From positions 1 to 64,000 of the forward strand of contig NZ_RYFF01000013.1 of the NCBI RefSeq assembly GCF_004138165.1: a DNA stretch of 64,000 nucleotides, given 5' to 3'. The position numbers were made by a program, and so were the translations under genes. Below the pieces are notes generated by a model. The model saw only the letters and a list, made by a program, of their open reading frames with translations. It did no database searches and had not been told where the DNA came from. Source of the DNA: Candidatus Chloroploca sp. Khr17. Its GTDB lineage: Bacteria > Chloroflexota > Chloroflexia > Chloroflexales > Chloroflexaceae. Below, one piece after another: positions 7,956-17,184 of this stretch (its first letter is position 1; each line of letters opens with the position of its first letter).

Positions 7956-8888
7956 CTACCCTTCACCAAGCGCTTTGCGCTTTGCTTCAACAAAATGGCG
8001 CTGTTCCAGACGGATACTGCTCGTAAGGCGGCTGATCGTCGCACTCTCTTCGCTGCTGATGCCGCCCTCGGCGGCAGCGACGGCAAAGAGCGCATCAAGA
8101 AAGCGGACACGCTCGGCAATCGTGGTACGCTGGGCAAATTCGTAGGTCATGACATAGGGGTCAAGTTGATCATCGGCGCTTTCAGCGAGGGCGACCTCGG
8201 CGACCAACTCGGCCCGTTCGTGGCTAATCTCCCAGCCATGCTTGAGTGCAGTCACGATCCGCGTGCGCTCGGCCTCGCTGACGGGGGTCTCGACGTGCGC
8301 AATGGTTGCGAGGATGCCCCCGGCAAGCGCCAGTTTGCGCGCCTCGTCGGGTGGAATGCCCAGGTCTTCTTCGGGGGCTTTGCCGAGGCGAACGCGCACC
8401 CCATAATAGACACGATTGTTAAGAAACTCGTCGAGGTACTGTTCACGGTTGGGGCCGCGGGCTTTGATGCCAAAGGTACGCCGTAGCAGCGCCCCCATCC
8501 CGGCGAGCGGGCCAGCATCGGCTCGCATGACCGCCTGACGAATCTCATTGCCGACCGTTCGCTCTTCTTCGGTGACGACTCGATCAGCGGCGAGCAGACG
8601 ATCAAGCGCTTCGAGCGCGAGCGTACGATCAGTCGGGCCACGCAGGTTGGCTGCGAGTTCTTCCAGAAGGCGGGTGCGCTCCTCTGCTCCGACTGGCGAA
8701 TAGAGGTAAATATCGAGTTGCGCCCAGTCCTGCATCGTCAGACTCATCTCGTCGGAACCGACGTTCTGGCCCATTTCGGCGAGGAGATTCTTGAGGCTGT
8801 TGACCTCATCAAGCGCGAGTTCACCGTCGGCCCATGCAGCGGCGATAATGACTTTGGCGAGCGCCATTGCCAGCGGAGACTTTGCCAT
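7956..8888 (-). CDS. TerB-family protein
   Basis: The 310-residue, mostly helical protein opens with the TerB pattern: ALAKVIIAAAWADGELALDEVNSLKNLL. A second related half contains ALAGGILATIAHVETPVSEAERTRI and DALFAVAAAEGGISSEESATI. TerB domains are acidic helical modules that can bind metal and are linked to tellurite resistance and envelope stress, though most members have no tested function. There is no tellurite operon here; the gene sits between an acyl-CoA ligase and the M14 peptidase. A general stress or scaffolding role is only an inference. Confidence 0.75.
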   Translation of the reverse strand: MAKSPLAMALAKVIIAAAWADGELALDEVNSLKNLLAEMGQNVGSDEMSLTMQDWAQLDIYLYSPVGAEERTRLLEELAANLRGPTDRTLALEALDRLLAADRVVTEEERTVGNEIRQAVMRADAGPLAGMGALLRRTFGIKARGPNREQYLDEFLNNRVYYGVRVRLGKAPEEDLGIPPDEARKLALAGGILATIAHVETPVSEAERTRIVTALKHGWEISHERAELVAEVALAESADDQLDPYVMTYEFAQRTTIAERVRFLDALFAVAAAEGGISSEESATISRLTSSIRLEQRHFVEAKRKALGEG

Positions 8889-10772: not shown

Positions 10773-12542
10773 TTACCAACCACCACCAGAACGCCCGCCA
10801 CCAAAGCTCCCACCGGAACGCCCGCCACCAAAACTGCCGCCCGAACGCCCGCCACTCCCCCAGCCGCTGCTGCCGCGACTCGAGCCACTGCTCCAACTGC
10901 CCGAGCCACCCCAGCCACCGCGGCGGCCTGTGCCCATGATGATCACAGGGCCAAGCCCGCCACCGCCACCCGAGGGGCGTGAGGTGTGTTTACGGATCTC
11001 ATTGGCAGCTTCCCGGGCTTCTTGCGCAATCGCTTTGGCCTCCTCAATCGTTTGTTTCAGTTCTTGCTCACCGGTAATCGGCAAGCGGATTTTATCAAAG
11101 CGGGCGCGGGCCTCCGTGACTTGCTTTTTTGCCCCCGACGGCGTCCGCTTGCCGGCCTGCTGGTCCAGGCGTTCGGCCTCTTCGACGGCAGTCCGCGCAT
11201 CAGTCATGGCGCTATTGAGATCGGTGCGCAACTGTTCAAGGCGTTGGGTATCGGCGAGTGCGGCCTGATAGACCACGCTGCTTTCGGTTTGGACATAACT
11301 ATAGGCTTCAAGGGCCTCTTTGAAGGCCGTGCGGCGCCGCTCTTCTTCCCAGGTTCCGGCCTGCTTATGCGCCTGCTGGGCCTTTTCAAAGCGTTCCACC
11401 AGGACCTTGACCGACGCAGTTGTCGTGGCCTGGATATCGTTGCCGTGCAGATTGATAAAGCGGGCGATCTTATTGATCTCGCCGCTAACGAGTGGCCCGA
11501 GTTTCTCGACCTGCTGACGGAGTTTCTCCATCGACTCGGCTTCGCCGCGCGCGGCGGCGAGGGCTGCATCAGCCAGGCGATCGGCGGTGGTGGCGGCGGT
11601 CGCGAGGCGCAGCCAGTCTGGCTTGGCCTGAGCGGCCTCCTGCTGAGCTACGGCAAGCTGCTGCGCAGCCTCGTGCAACTGTTGCTCGGGGACTTTGCTG
11701 ACATCGGGATCATTGGCTTTGACAAAAGCGAGACCAGCCTCGATGCTGCGTTCGGCCTCTTCCAGCAACTCACGCGCCGACGCACGGGCCGTTTCAAGGT
11801 CCTGCAGGCGGGTGATGATCGCCTCAATCAACTGATCAACATAGGTGAGTTCCTGCTCAGCGGCATCAAGTTGCTCGCTAGCGGCCACAAACGCCTGCAC
11901 CTCCATCGCATTCTGCTCCTGGGCGCGTTCCCAGTGTTCGTGGGCGCGGTCGGCGGCAGCCTCGGCTTCGCTGCCATTGCCCCGAATATCGCTCCAGCTA
12001 CTCTCGGCAAACTCGTCCACCTGATCAAAGACCTCGTGGCCCTCGGCAATCTTGCGGGCCGTAGCTTCACCACGGGCCTGGATCGCTGTGAGACGGGCAG
12101 CATTGGCGGCCCGCAGCGCGGGTGCGCCACTGCCCGAGGCCACAGCCTGGACGAGTTTCGCTTGCGCCATACCAAGCTGATCGCGGGCGGTATCATACTG
12201 CTGAGATTGCAGTGCATCGGCAGTTGAGCCGAGCGCCGTCTCGACCAACGCGAGCGCCTCGTGCATCAGATCGAGGCGATACCCCTCGGCGAGCACCGCC
12301 TCGGCAGCGGTACGTTCAGCGGCCGTATCGGCCAGAATACCGGCGAACTGGTTCGCCAGTGCAATCAAAATATCTGCTTGTTCCGACGCTACCTTAGCGG
12401 CTGCCGTCGCTTCTGGAGCCTGATACGACTTCATTGCGGCGGTCGCACGTGCAACCTCTGTACTAATCGGGGCGAGCGCGGCCGCGGGATCGGCAATCGC
12501 ATCGCCCAGGATCGCAAGACGGTTGGTAGCGTCGGTCAGGCT
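10773..12542 (-). CDS. -1 frame extension of the TPM-domain protein: coiled coil and Gly-rich tail
   Basis: This frame continues the gene at 12536-13519 after a shift of -1 at an A7 run (12542-12548). From the shift it reads [18 protein letters not shown] and then about 470 residues of Ala/Glu/Gln-rich coiled coil. A hydrophobic segment (LGPVIIMG) and a Gly/Ser tail with repeated [11 protein letters not shown] end it. This is the normal C-terminal architecture of long Chloroflexota TPM proteins, so the two frames clearly encode one protein of about 915 residues. The first ATG in this frame is only at 12434 and has no ribosome site, which argues against independent translation. It is either programmed frameshifting, a mutation, or a base miscall. 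Confidence 0.75.
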
Positions 12543-13519
12543 TTTTTTGCGCGGTCGAGTTCCTCCTGCGCAATACGCGCCTGCTCATCGAGGTCACGGC
12601 GAAGTTGTTCGATGACGGCCAGTTCATCGCTGACCGTATCGCAGGCGACACTCACCTGATCGTATTGCACGGCAGCCTCTTCAAACTGCGCATTGCTTGG
12701 TTTTTCGTGACGCTCGAGTTGGTCACCGGTCTCCTTGAAGGTTTGCTGCGCCTTGACAAAATCGGCTAGCGCCGCTTTTTGGAGGGTCGCAAGGCGGTTG
12801 ATATCCGCTTTGGCATACGAGACCGCATCAAACTTCGCCTTGTCGTCAGCGTTACGGAAGCGCTGGCCGAGATCGGTAATCTTGAGACTCGCCGCCTCGC
12901 GGGCGTCCTTAAGCCGTTGCTGAGCGGCAGCGCGGGCCTGCGCGGTACGGCGGCGGCGCGTAAACGCAAAGGCCCCGGCCCCGGCAGCGGCGAGACCACC
13001 AACACCGAGCACAACTGGCGTTGGATCAAAATTGACCGTTGTGCCGCCACCGGGTGTCGGCGGGTTCACGATCGCATTCTCGATGGCCCCGAGCGCGCTC
13101 ACCACACCACCGGTAAAATCGCCAGACGAGAGACCAGGGTTTAGTTCGGTACGACGGATCGCCTCGGCATTCTCATTGACGCCAAGGGCGCGGGCCCAAT
13201 CATCGCCATACGCGATCTCACTATACGGTGGATTCTCGGCCACATAGATCGCGATCAACGCATTGAGCATCGTGCCATCGGGACGCCCAACGCCATCATC
13301 GATCATGCGTTCCGTAAAATCATCGGCATCACCATTGGGCACAATATAGACCGCAACGGTAGCCCCGCGATTCAGCAATGGACGCGCTGCCTGCTCAACC
13401 TCGCCACGATCCAGGCGACCGTCTGGATCAGTAATGAGCACACGTCCTTGGGCAAACGCTGGAACAGCCAGAAGCAGGAGCAAGGCGATCGCTGCTACTA
13501 GTCGAAGAACATGACGCAC
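12536..13519 (-). CDS. TPM-domain membrane protein, zero-frame product
   Basis: A signal peptide (RLVAAIALLLLLAVPAFAQG) is followed by a TPM domain of about 125 residues (TDPDGRLDRGEVEQAA, VYIVPNGD, EIAYGDDWA). A transmembrane helix (PVVLGVGGLAAAGAGAFAF) with an RRRR stop follows, then the start of a coiled coil. TPM domains occur in extracytoplasmic proteins that assist photosystem repair or membrane-complex assembly. The frame stops at TGA (12536-12538) directly after the A7 run, giving 327 residues. I prefer the GTG at 13519, because GGGGAGG lies 9 nt before it and the signal peptide then starts cleanly; an ATG at 13555 would sit on the -10 box. The rest of the protein is in the -1 frame. 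Confidence 0.8.
   Translation of the reverse strand: MRHVLRLVAAIALLLLLAVPAFAQGRVLITDPDGRLDRGEVEQAARPLLNRGATVAVYIVPNGDADDFTERMIDDGVGRPDGTMLNALIAIYVAENPPYSEIAYGDDWARALGVNENAEAIRRTELNPGLSSGDFTGGVVSALGAIENAIVNPPTPGGGTTVNFDPTPVVLGVGGLAAAGAGAFAFTRRRRTAQARAAAQQRLKDAREAASLKITDLGQRFRNADDKAKFDAVSYAKADINRLATLQKAALADFVKAQQTFKETGDQLERHEKPSNAQFEEAAVQYDQVSVACDTVSDELAVIEQLRRDLDEQARIAQEELDRAKKA
12542..12567 (-). promoter_or_regulatory. candidate programmed -1 frameshift site
   Basis: The codons GCA-AAA-AAA form an A-AAA-AAA slippery heptamer (12548 to 12542). An AGGAGG sequence lies 13 nt upstream (12567 to 12562), and a zero-frame TGA follows 3 nt downstream. The layout matches that of dnaX in Escherichia coli, where a Shine-Dalgarno-like element stimulates -1 slippage on A-AAA-AAG. 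No strong stem-loop is evident after it by eye. Confidence 0.5.
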
Positions 13520-13558
13520 AGCACTATTCCTCCCCACGAATTCTTTCTTGTACATGAG

Positions 13559-13617: not shown

Positions 13618-15243
13618 TTACCCCTCCTGCGCCTGGCGTTTCTGATCGAGGCGCTGCTCAGCGGTGAGCCGCTCTAGGCCATAGTCGTTCTGATCGACAA
13701 ACTGCATGCCTTTGGCAAGCGTCGGGTGGACAGCGCTGATTTCACGGAACATCGCCTGGGCAATCTGGCGATAGGAGGGATGCCCCTGGCGTGTGCTGCG
13801 CAGTTCGATCAGGTGATACGCCTCGCGTAAATTCAATTTGATCCGCCAGCGCACGCGGAAACCGAAAGGAACTGCGTACTGGGCTTCGTTCGGGAAATCG
13901 GCTTGCATCGCGATGCAGACCTCGGCGGCCTGTTGCAAGGCGGCCCGATACGTATCGCCCACCCCAACCTCTTCAAGCTCGGGTGGCACAACGAACCCAT
14001 GTGCTACCGTGAAGCGCTGGCGCTCCTGGGTCAGCACTCGGTGACGCTGAAGATCGCGGTATGCACCGATGTCCGCCAGGATATCAAAGCTGTAGTATGG
14101 CTCTTCAAACGCCCGCCCGGGGCGATGAAAGCGGCTCGCACGCTCGCCGATCGCGGCCTCAATCAGGGTGACCCGCTCGGCCTCGGGCATGGCCTCAACG
14201 CGTTCCTGTATGTCCATAAGCGGCAGATCCAGGTGAGGATAGAGAATCGCCGCCACGGTCTTCTCTTCCGCTTGAGGATCATAGTCAACCAAGCGAACTG
14301 TGACCTCGTCTTGGGATGGCTGAGATGCATCCATGTGCGCGGCGATAGCGGCGACGCGCTCGCGGAGCGTCGCGATGTAGGCTGCATAGGCGCGTCCACG
14401 GTCGCCTTTCGAGCGCTTCACAAAAGCCGGGATCACCAGATCCAGTTCGCCCTGCATCGCCTCGCCAAGCTGTTGCGTCTCGGCGAACGGGGTGGCGGCA
14501 AGCTTGGTGAGCAGATACTCGAAGGCCCGTCCATTGCCAAAGAGCCCCACGTTGGTGCGGGTCGCCATCGGGAGCAGGCCGCGCAGCAGGTCGAAAGCTT
14601 TCGCCTGGGTCGCGCTTGCGTAGGCTCGCTGCGACGTCACCGGGTCACGCGGAAACTGGGTCTGTACCCACGCCTGCACCGGGGCAAGCAGCGCACTGTA
14701 GGTACGAAACAGATGATCCATTGCGTCGGTGAAGCGTGCGGCATACGGCGATGCCATCAGGGCAGGCTCGCGCAGGTAAGCGTAGCCCTCAGGCCCCTGC
14801 TGATCGAAGCGGACATAACGGGTCGACTTTTCGAGCGGCGAGAGCCCGAGCCGACTATCTTCGAGCACCTTGGCCGCGATATTGCTCACGCCCTCGCAGG
14901 CAACATGGGCACCACCGAGTTCAGCGACCGAATCGTCACCGTAGCCGACCAGCACTCGCTCGTAGAAAGCCTCGGCCTGCTTGACGGCAACCAGTTGCGC
15001 AGCAGGATCATTGCCGGCCCCGGCCACGATCAAGTGGAAACCCGACTCGGGCGCGCTGATAAACTCATCAAGCAAGAGACGACGCAGACTTTTGGTACTC
15101 CGACTATAGCGTGAGAAGAGTGCGCCCTTCACCACCTCGGGAAGATTGCGCAAGCAAAAGATCGGACGCTCGGTATTGGTCACAAAGGGCTGGAGCAGCG
15201 CGATCTCCTCTGCGGTAAAGTGCTCGGCGTTCGGCTCAAACAT
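13618..15243 (-). CDS. thyX: long two-domain ThyX-family (FAD-dependent thymidylate synthase-like) protein
   Basis: At 541 residues this is twice the usual ThyX length. The N-terminal half resembles ThyX around GDDSVAELGGAHVACEGVSN and LEKSTRYVRFD (about residue 140), but the place of the RHR motif reads LEDSRLG. The C-terminal half carries the recognisable motif QRHRVLTQERQRF (about residue 400), corresponding to RHRxxSxNExSxR with substitutions, followed by a typical ThyX end. True ThyX makes dTMP from dUMP using FAD, NADPH and methylene-folate as a homotetramer. A fused pair with one degenerate site could be a pseudo-dimer or a paralogue with a different role. The ATG at 15243 has AGGAG seven bases upstream. 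The frame open to 15417 lies over a repeat and is not coding. Confidence 0.75.
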   Translation of the reverse strand: MFEPNAEHFTAEEIALLQPFVTNTERPIFCLRNLPEVVKGALFSRYSRSTKSLRRLLLDEFISAPESGFHLIVAGAGNDPAAQLVAVKQAEAFYERVLVGYGDDSVAELGGAHVACEGVSNIAAKVLEDSRLGLSPLEKSTRYVRFDQQGPEGYAYLREPALMASPYAARFTDAMDHLFRTYSALLAPVQAWVQTQFPRDPVTSQRAYASATQAKAFDLLRGLLPMATRTNVGLFGNGRAFEYLLTKLAATPFAETQQLGEAMQGELDLVIPAFVKRSKGDRGRAYAAYIATLRERVAAIAAHMDASQPSQDEVTVRLVDYDPQAEEKTVAAILYPHLDLPLMDIQERVEAMPEAERVTLIEAAIGERASRFHRPGRAFEEPYYSFDILADIGAYRDLQRHRVLTQERQRFTVAHGFVVPPELEEVGVGDTYRAALQQAAEVCIAMQADFPNEAQYAVPFGFRVRWRIKLNLREAYHLIELRSTRQGHPSYRQIAQAMFREISAVHPTLAKGMQFVDQNDYGLERLTAEQRLDQKRQAQEG

Positions 15244-15365
15244 CAAGGAGCTCCTGAATAGTCTGTCAACAAAAGTTCCCGCTATGCCTAGGAGCGCGGG
15301 CAGCTCGCCCGCTTCGGGCGCACCAGCGGGCGGGCCGCCCGCACTCCCGGGTCGCGCCTTATCAG

Positions 15366-15385
15366 AAAACTTCATTCCCAGACTA
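15366..15385. repeat. MITE end copy
   Basis: The sequence AACTTCATTCCCAGACTA recurs here alone, without the rest of the element seen at 59992-60120. It lies between the thyX-like gene and the pucC leader. Confidence 0.6.
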
Positions 15386-15495
15386 CTAAAACAGATCGGT
15401 TGGGTATCCAGGGCCAATACGGTTCAAGGTATTGGATCGAGGGCATTGTACCGCAGACTGGGCAAAGCGAGAATTGCCTACGCGATCACGCAGAC

Positions 15496-15718: not shown

Positions 15719-15793
15719 ATGCCTGAAGAGCCACTGATCGGCTCCCTGGTGCCTTGTTCTTCGCTGGGTACATACCTTAGATGGGTCGGATAG
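15719..15793 (+). CDS. possible 24-residue leader peptide
   Basis: ATG at 15719 follows TTGAGGAAC by a workable distance and encodes MPEEPLIGSLVPCSSLGTY plus five residues before TAG. It lies between the terminator-like hairpin and the transporter gene. It shows no run of a single regulatory amino acid and may be chance. Confidence 0.2.
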   Translation: MPEEPLIGSLVPCSSLGTYLRWVG

Positions 15794-15828
15794 ACACCGG
15801 CCCAGACTCCAAGAAATGGAGGGGTTCC

Positions 15829-17184
15829 GTGGGGTTTCTACGCTTCTGGTTCAAGACAATGCGCCTCTCGATCGCCCGTATTGGAGCAGGTTGGATGTTC
15901 GCCCTGCTGACGTTCAACTTCAACCGCGTTTCGATTGCCGATCTCGGTGCGCTTGCGGTTGTCGTTACGTCACTGATCGGCTTGCATCACTTCATCTCGT
16001 TCTTTCAGGTCTACTGGGGTCGTTTTGCTGATCGCTATGCACTTTTTGGCTATCGGCGCACGCCCTACATCTTCCTCAGCGGCATGGGCGCTTCGCTCAT
16101 CTTTCTCTTGCTTCCCTCAATTGCGGTTGGTCTTGGCGAGCGCAGCCTGGCGGCGACCTTCGAGGCTTTCCTCTTGATCGGGTTTTTTGGGGTTGCGATG
16201 GCAATGAATGGCAGTGCCTCGAATGCCCTGATGGCCGAAGTTACTACAGAAAAAGAACGTGGCGGGGTTGTTGCCGTCGTCTGGGCTGCCATTATCCTGA
16301 GCGGGATCATCACGTCAGTGATAGCAGGACAGATGATGCCCAACTATGACCCTGAGGCGATGCAGCGCCTGTACAACCTCACGCCTGCGGTGGTCTTCAT
16401 CACCACCTTTCTCGGCATCATTGGCATGGAGCGCCGCATTACGCCGGAGGAGCACGCCGCCTTGCTGGCTGCTGAACCTGACAAATCAGCCTCACCACTG
16501 AGCACGTTCCGGATCGCACGTAATCTGATGAGTTCGAATCCCCATGTGCGGGCCTTCTTCTTTTTTGTGCTGCTTGCGGTGATGGGCATCTTCCTTCAGG
16601 ACGCTATTCTTGAACCCTTCGGTGCGGAAGTCTTTGGGATGAACCAGAAGGAAACAGCTGCCTTCCAGCAGTCCTGGGGCGGCGGAGCCTTGCTTGGCAT
16701 CTTCCTTATGGGGATTATTTCGTCCTACACCTCGCTCAGCAAAAAGACGATTGCGACGCTTGGTGGCCTGATGGTTGCGATCGGCTTGCTGGCGATTGCT
16801 GGCGCTGGTCTGACGCACCAGGCTGCGCTGATCACCCCGGCGTTGCTGGTGATTGGTCTTGGCGTCGGCTTCTTTGATGTCGGTGCCCTCTCGATGATGA
16901 TGGATATGACCATCGAAGGCCAGGTTGGGCTCTATATGGGCCTCTGGGGGATGGCGCAAGGCCTCGGAACCGGTTTTGCCAATGTCCTCAGTGGGGCTTT
17001 GCATACCGGACTCATCGAGACGGGCCTGCTTTCTGAGGCGATGGGCTATGGGGTCATCTTTGGCTTCGAAGCCGTTGCGATGCTCCTTGCCATTGGCCTC
17101 TTGCGCAGCATTAGTATTCAGGAGTTCAAAGGTCTGACGCGGGCCGATATTAGTACCGCGCTGGCGATGGATACGGCAGGGTAA
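15829..17184 (+). CDS. PucC-type MFS transporter (bacteriochlorophyll delivery family)
   Basis: The 451-residue, 12-helix membrane protein begins with LRLSIARIGAG-like and NFNRVSIADLGALA segments characteristic of the PucC/BCD family. The family pattern continues with FRFQVYWGRFADR-like and YRRTPYIFLSGMG regions, then NALMAEVTTEKERGGV. PucC/LhaA proteins help assemble light-harvesting or reaction-centre complexes and are thought to deliver (bacterio)chlorophyll. This is the strongest marker of phototrophy in the window. I chose the GTG at 15829 because GGAGG lies six bases before it; the ATG at 15781 lacks a site and overlaps the leader. The next gene follows after 6 bp and is surely co-transcribed. 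The exact cargo is inferred. Confidence 0.85.
   Translation: MGFLRFWFKTMRLSIARIGAGWMFALLTFNFNRVSIADLGALAVVVTSLIGLHHFISFFQVYWGRFADRYALFGYRRTPYIFLSGMGASLIFLLLPSIAVGLGERSLAATFEAFLLIGFFGVAMAMNGSASNALMAEVTTEKERGGVVAVVWAAIILSGIITSVIAGQMMPNYDPEAMQRLYNLTPAVVFITTFLGIIGMERRITPEEHAALLAAEPDKSASPLSTFRIARNLMSSNPHVRAFFFFVLLAVMGIFLQDAILEPFGAEVFGMNQKETAAFQQSWGGGALLGIFLMGIISSYTSLSKKTIATLGGLMVAIGLLAIAGAGLTHQAALITPALLVIGLGVGFFDVGALSMMMDMTIEGQVGLYMGLWGMAQGLGTGFANVLSGALHTGLIETGLLSEAMGYGVIFGFEAVAMLLAIGLLRSISIQEFKGLTRADISTALAMDTAG

Follow-up and report, generated by a model that had tools for sequence, protein, structure and literature searches.

A Conserved A_AAA_AAA Run as a Candidate Programmed -1 Frameshift Site in a TPM-Domain Gene of Candidatus Chloroploca and Its Relatives

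A TPM-domain gene continued in a second frame

The stretch of DNA analyzed here, 64,000 nucleotides of Candidatus Chloroploca sp. Khr17 (host genome, 6.38 Mb) and called the window below, carries on its reverse strand a gene for a membrane protein with a TPM domain. The open reading frame (ORF) of this gene, which we call the 0 frame, ends at a TGA next to a run of seven adenines (A7), and the protein continues in the -1 frame. A preliminary description of the window, made from the sequence alone, had proposed a programmed -1 frameshift at this place, and its anatomy is exact: A7, an AGGAGG 13 nt 5′ of it, a GCC codon, and the TGA all lie where it had put them (Table 1). We also recomputed the sizes that it gave for the two products (327 and 915 residues) and for the -1 continuation, which runs for 589 codons from the Lys-Lys pair to its stop, and obtained the same figures. 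The 0 frame is open as far upstream as an ATG at 13555 (12536 to 13555, 339 amino acids). The likely start is the GTG at 13519 (VRHVLR), where the N termini of relatives align; by eye, a GGAGGA lies 8 nt before it, and a likely transmembrane segment spans residues ~182 to 200 in the numbering of the 339-residue ORF. An A7 run alone is no rarity here: the window has 10 matches versus 3.16 expected, a number reached in 1 of 100 shuffles. What exceeds chance is the conservation of this run and not its occurrence.

The window protein falls under the cutoff of the Pfam TPM profile (PF04536; 16.2 versus 22.1 bits), and the same profile matches 16 of 19 relatives at an E value of 0.1 or better (best, 1.4e-9). 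An AlphaFold model (mean predicted local distance difference test score [pLDDT], 87.9; predicted template modeling score [pTM], 0.47) has a TPM fold followed by long helices, and the fold stands after a signal or anchor segment. Foldseek ranks 1 to 6 were TPM structures (E values of 6e-5 to 1.8e-4), with matches to Psb32 (8c7i), BA41 (5anp), TLP18.3 (3pvh), and a TPM domain from Rhodothermus. TPM proteins of the YdjH type, which have a long coiled coil, are described as partners of PspA and have been proposed to be chaperone-like (PMC11237479; here and below, statements from papers cited by such identifiers refer to the portions of them that were available). The gene product thus shares its fold with Psb32, TLP18.3, BA41, and YdjH, but no frameshift is described for these proteins in the portions available.

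Table 1. Features of the TPM gene in the window and positions of TerB-domain genes near it and near its relatives
Feature	Position	Strand	Remarks
0-frame ORF (short product, 327 residues)	12536..13519	-	GTG start at 13519, TGA at 12538-12536; signal/anchor helix, TPM domain, likely transmembrane segment, start of coiled coil
AGGAGG, internal Shine-Dalgarno-like element	12562..12567	-	13-nt gap to A7
A_AAA_AAA, putative slippery heptamer	12542..12548	-	0-frame GCA AAA AAA; read from sequence
0-frame TGA	12536..12538	-	One codon (GCC) between heptamer and stop; read from sequence
-1-frame continuation, long coiled coil and Gly-rich tail	10773..12542	-	Stop at 10775-10773
TerB-domain gene, window	7956-8888	-	One gene further on from the TPM gene
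TerB-domain gene, Chloroflexus-like genome	L134:5214-6146	-	Directly after the TPM gene
TerB-domain gene, Chloroflexus-like genome	L138:6622-7569	-	Directly after the TPM gene

Conservation of the run, the stop, and both coding parts

The N part of the gene was matched in 60 of 82 genomes of the order, in some through a TPM paralogue alone, and in the class as a whole a profile search gave matches in 65 of 158 genomes, all inside the order except one (G087). We inspected 56 loci of the TPM gene: 51 span the slip site, one (L059) stops short of it, and four make up family f3 (the window's own family is f1). In these four (L047, L055, L056, and L057), the short form is alone; the ORF ends at about the place in the alignment where the short product does, and no C part follows.

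Exactly seven adenines, at one alignment column and in the one phase A_AAA_AAA, are present in 44 of the 51 spanning loci, from 16 genera and three families (29 loci in f1, 8 in f2, and 7 in f4). The run has the form of a slippery heptamer, X_XXY_YYZ, in the 0-frame phase. The codon preceding AAA AAA is GCA in 40 loci, CTA in 2, GTA in 1, and ACA in 1, so that the residue varies while its final A is constant. Elsewhere in the 44 genes, none of the 29 other Lys-Lys pairs spells A_AAA_AAA. Given the amino acids and the codon usage of each gene, the probability of NNA AAA AAA has a median of 0.0075 in the 28 loci described next as split and of 0.025 in the 16 that are fused.

The 44 loci occur with two polarities. 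The split polarity, that of the window, comprises 28 loci in which the long frame is -1 and the 0-frame stop lies exactly one codon past the heptamer, a stop at that exact place being what defines the class (hence 28/28); 20 of them are in f1 (nine genera) and 8 in f2 (three genera). Their stops are TGA in 10 loci, TAA in 12, and TAG in 6. The reversed polarity comprises 16 loci (eight Chloroflexus-like loci, L022, and seven of f4) in which frame 0 is the long one and slipping by -1 on that A7 would lead to a stop, three codons on in eight loci and six codons on in the other eight. Stop and continuation thus lie in differing frames, one way in 28 loci and the reverse way in 16, and both parts are coding (ratio of nonsynonymous to synonymous substitution rates [dN/dS], <0.3).

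The preliminary description had named joint conservation of A7, the upstream Shine-Dalgarno (SD) string, and the out-of-frame stop as support for programming; this combination was found in 28 loci of 12 genera in two families. It had also held that close relatives with an unbroken frame and no slippery run would speak for error or mutation. All three genomes of the window's genus have A7 and the TGA; unbroken frames do exist among distant relatives, of which 16 keep A7 and a nearby -1 stop and four (L042 to L045) have no A7.

The stop itself is selected. When the codon after the stop-forming Leu or Val codon starts with G, NTA-G is the only way to form a stop, and all six split loci so constrained (L010, L012, L013, L014, L019, and L025) use the rare CTA or GTA that forms it (P values of 0.013 to 0.056 each, from the gene's own codon usage).

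Both coding parts are under purifying selection, with dN/dS values of 0.08 to 0.23 before the site and 0.08 to 0.26 after it in 11 pairs; pooled over 14 pairs, the value just before A7 is 0.16. Synonymous codon identity peaks at the site in both polarity classes (the top five windows of 757 and of 803), in a test that used the A7 loci only (44/51), with the A7 codons thereby preselected, and left out pairs that were >75% codon identical. Windows of the split class that begin 2 to 3 codons past A7 rank 6th and 8th, and synonymous identity in this class is also raised at codons -7, -6, -3, and +3 to +6.

We placed the polarities on a careful tree of 51 rows (the 44 A7 loci, L040, L042 to L045, and two f3 loci) and counted changes irrespective of their direction. 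Polarity changes three times among the A7 loci and four times when all long loci are counted, that is, with the A10 locus (L040) and the fused loci without A7; the sister loci L022 and L029 have opposite polarity. With at least three changes and A7 on both sides of them, polarity was reversed repeatedly while A7 stayed.

Frameshifting and its alternatives

In shifts of the dnaX type, an SD-like stimulator is expected ~10 to 14 nt upstream of the slip site (~10 nt in dnaX). We calculated pairing with the anti-SD sequence along the alignment, and the windows just upstream of A7 pair best of all 688 aligned windows in the mean over the 44 loci (mean, -10.0 kcal/mol; weakest, -7.0 kcal/mol). A purine core stands 10 to 13 nt before A7 in 44 of 44 loci, though the residues encoded there vary.

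The genome of the window has both tRNA-Lys(CTT) and tRNA-Lys(TTT); the CTT tRNA was present in 15 of 15 genomes tested, and the TTT tRNA was looked for in the window's genome only. AAG could be read by the CTT tRNA, which probably re-pairs poorly on AAA, so A_AAA_AAA and not A_AAA_AAG would be the slipping form expected in such hosts, and this fits all 44 loci. A like argument from tRNA-Lys has been made for Thermus, whose dnaX uses polymerase slippage (PMC5009743).

Taken together, the 28 split loci with A7, SD-like core, and stop support the shift proposed in the preliminary description, and we consider it probable that the TPM gene uses programmed -1 ribosomal frameshifting of the dnaX type, helped by an internal SD element. 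Ribosomes would pause on GCA AAA AAA, aided by pairing of 16S rRNA with the AGGAGG or GAGG 10 to 13 nt upstream, and a fraction would slip back one base (-1), two tRNA-Lys shifting in tandem on A_AAA_AAA. Unshifted ribosomes would end at the TGA and yield a membrane-anchored TPM protein of 327 residues with a short coiled coil, while shifted ribosomes would yield the 915-residue form with the long coiled coil and Gly-rich tail; the site would thereby set how many short chains are made per long chain of the same protein. Among Chloroflexus- and Roseiflexus-like relatives, the default and shifted products would be exchanged and the site retained. We infer that slippage does occur, that the ribosome is what slips, and that both products are needed. 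The two lengths may act in one membrane assembly, perhaps with the role of a chaperone-like assembly factor that has been suggested for other TPM proteins. An A_AAA_AAA cassette of Mg chelatase gives 10% frameshifting in E. coli (PMC3711429).

Because A7 was kept through repeated reversals, selection would act to keep both chain lengths, short and long, side by side and not on a switch for either. We lean, without strong conviction, toward regarding A7 as a ratio-setting device that is older than the families of the order and was kept through at least three reversals of the default product (four with the A10 locus), family f3 having become short only and some Roseiflexus-like relatives long only.

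Several observations weigh against ribosomal frameshifting at a programmed site. Seven of the 51 loci do not have A7: four have no run (L042 to L045) and carry the long frame only, and three have A6 (L011), A8 (L058), or A10 (L040). L058 has an earlier frame break, and both L011 and L058, from fragmented assemblies, may be sequence errors. For the remaining 22 split loci, those not constrained by G, the residues make the stop likely (P values of 0.39 to 1.0), and the nearby -1 stop of the reversed loci is only mildly unlikely given the residues (P values of 0.04 to 0.51). Synonymous redraws are equally SD-like in 10 to 69% of cases in 37 of 44 loci, and SD strength goes beyond the residues (P value of ≤0.05) only in L023, L029, L030, and L046. 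The SD-like element is thus mostly no stronger than the encoded residues impose, and AGGAGG could be largely a by-product of coding, a caution already given in the preliminary description; the rank of this place among the 688 windows and the presence of the core in all 44 loci point the other way. RNAalifold found no downstream stem near the site in the 18 of 28 split loci that were aligned, pseudoknots being outside the test; the sole stem found is a weak one from column 42 onward. Minimum free energy over the 40 to 60 nt downstream is ordinary in most of the 44 loci, and some 75-nt windows have z scores of < -2. Such structure is not always present at bacterial frameshift sites (PMC4066793). 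Finally, pooled dN/dS after the site (14 pairs) is 0.29 over the first 35 codons, 0.19 over codons 36 to 70, and 0.12 over codons 71 to 200; toward the end of the weakly constrained first stretch, the same start codons turn up in several loci (GTG at codon 30 in 9 of 28 split loci and ATG at codon 37 in 5 of 28).

Two runs in the alignment deserve separate mention. L011 (G016:C310) is the sole relative with A6, where the long frame would need a +1 shift, whether through an assembly error or a real change. Six Herpetosiphon-like loci (L048 to L053) have a second A7 in the C part, ~1,100 bases past the site and in another codon phase.

The strongest alternative, which we nevertheless hold to be unlikely, is programmed transcriptional realignment, in which RNA polymerase slips on A7 and adds an A, so that some of the mRNA has A8 and a single frame. 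It is a rival because it would use the same run of A and make products identical to those of a ribosomal shift. Realignment of this kind has been demonstrated on A11 in tssM, a gene whose protein comes in two lengths and whose polarity is opposite between two species (PMC4256274), and on A9 in dnaX of Thermus (PMC3711429), an organism that also has two tRNA-Lys (PMC5009743); it has been argued even for shorter dnaX runs, one of them with seven A (PMC3711429). The three aberrant loci with A6, A8, and A10 are also in keeping with it. The cases shown in these sources have 9 to 11 A, however, whereas the run here is exactly seven in 44 of the 47 loci with A6 or more. The A_AAA_AAA phase is constant in the 44 loci, which polymerase slippage does not need, and all 44 have the SD-like core 10 to 13 nt upstream. 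A shift direction that varies among orthologs has been given as a criterion for transcriptional realignment (PMC3711429); here a -1 shift is what all 28 split A7 loci would need, and only the A6 locus would need +1. We favor ribosomal over polymerase slippage because run length, phase, and SD spacing are all fixed.

The gene might instead be split in two, with the C part translated separately by translational coupling or internal initiation, which we judge quite improbable. Six Herpetosiphon-like loci and L030 do have an ATG right where the A run ends; it overlaps the stop or lies just before it. Among the other 21 split loci, an SD-like string precedes an early start in 4 (L005, L006, L010, and L029); the first starts in these 21 are scattered from codon 2 to codon 81, however, and mostly have no SD. 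The GTG at codon 30 and the ATG at codon 37, together with the weak constraint on the first 35 codons, leave room for some internal initiation, but protein alignment in the -1 frame starts directly after A7, at the first codon, and this stretch is still constrained. Moreover, separate translation would leave A7 without a role, and 16 A7 loci have the two parts in one frame.

Still less probable is that A7 is kept for another reason, with the shift incidental and just one of the two products, long or short, of importance. The long-only loci L042 to L045 and the short-only f3 loci would agree with this, but the 28 loci with a 0-frame stop need a shift to fuse the long part, which is under selection. 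Sequencing error, recent mutation, or decay can be set aside for the family: homopolymers are error prone, and the fragmented assemblies with A6 and A8 may hold such errors, but the same break recurs with different stop codons in 28 loci of 12 genera, including the three-contig genome G042, dN/dS past the break is 0.08 to 0.26, and A7 at the same column in 44 of 51 loci excludes the homopolymer error about which the preliminary description had cautioned.

Known frameshift systems and the gene neighborhood

To our knowledge, a -1 frameshift is widely conserved in only a few nonmobile genes of bacteria, dnaX and chlD being the usual examples. The TPM gene resembles dnaX (tau and gamma of E. coli and the two-ORF dnaX genes elsewhere) in its A-run heptamer and in its two putative products, one long and one short, which share the N part; dnaX genes, too, come in both polarities (PMC3711429). 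The proteins are unrelated, however, and the TPM gene differs in having A_AAA_AAA and not A_AAA_AAG, a host with two tRNA-Lys, no downstream stem found, and both polarities inside one order. Mg chelatase genes of the chlD type likewise have a chromosomal -1 shift on A runs, including A_AAA_AAA, with Herpetosiphon among the genera (PMC3711429); this is another gene, and its signals usually include a downstream RNA structure (PMC9227772). A membrane protein of two lengths with a poly(A) site and opposite polarity is also known from tssM1 of Citrobacter rodentium and tssM3 of Yersinia pseudotuberculosis, but tssM1 has A11 and transcriptional slippage, and such sites are said to be uncommon among tssM genes (PMC4256274).

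The principle and the reversal of polarity are therefore already known from dnaX and tssM. A literature search gave no description of a frameshift in a TPM gene among the matches listed, and one could be present in supplementary material, for instance in the GeneTack cluster lists; in the main text of the GeneTack study, Herpetosiphon occurs once, for Mg chelatase, and the term "TPM" is absent. The frameshift would sit in an uncharacterized envelope protein of Chloroflexus-like bacteria, and a gene finder that does not allow for recoding would presumably split the gene in two or call it broken. The loci form a natural series (split, fused with the site, fused without it, and short only) for asking why two lengths are kept. 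The gene would also serve to ask whether, in a host that has two tRNA-Lys, A_AAA_AAA plus an SD element is enough in the absence of a stem.

We compared ten adjoining ORFs from five genomes, one of which (L137:7467-9161) is the C part itself. TerB was the sole neighboring family to recur among them (Table 1), and a TerB-domain protein is a possible functional partner of the TPM protein. Two other genes lie near the TPM gene in the window. One (13618-15417, reverse strand) encodes a 599-residue protein with two Thy1 (ThyX-like thymidylate synthase) stretches, apparently a tandem-domain form, and the other (15781-17184, forward strand) encodes a PucC-type major facilitator superfamily protein (PUCC, 3.4e-68).
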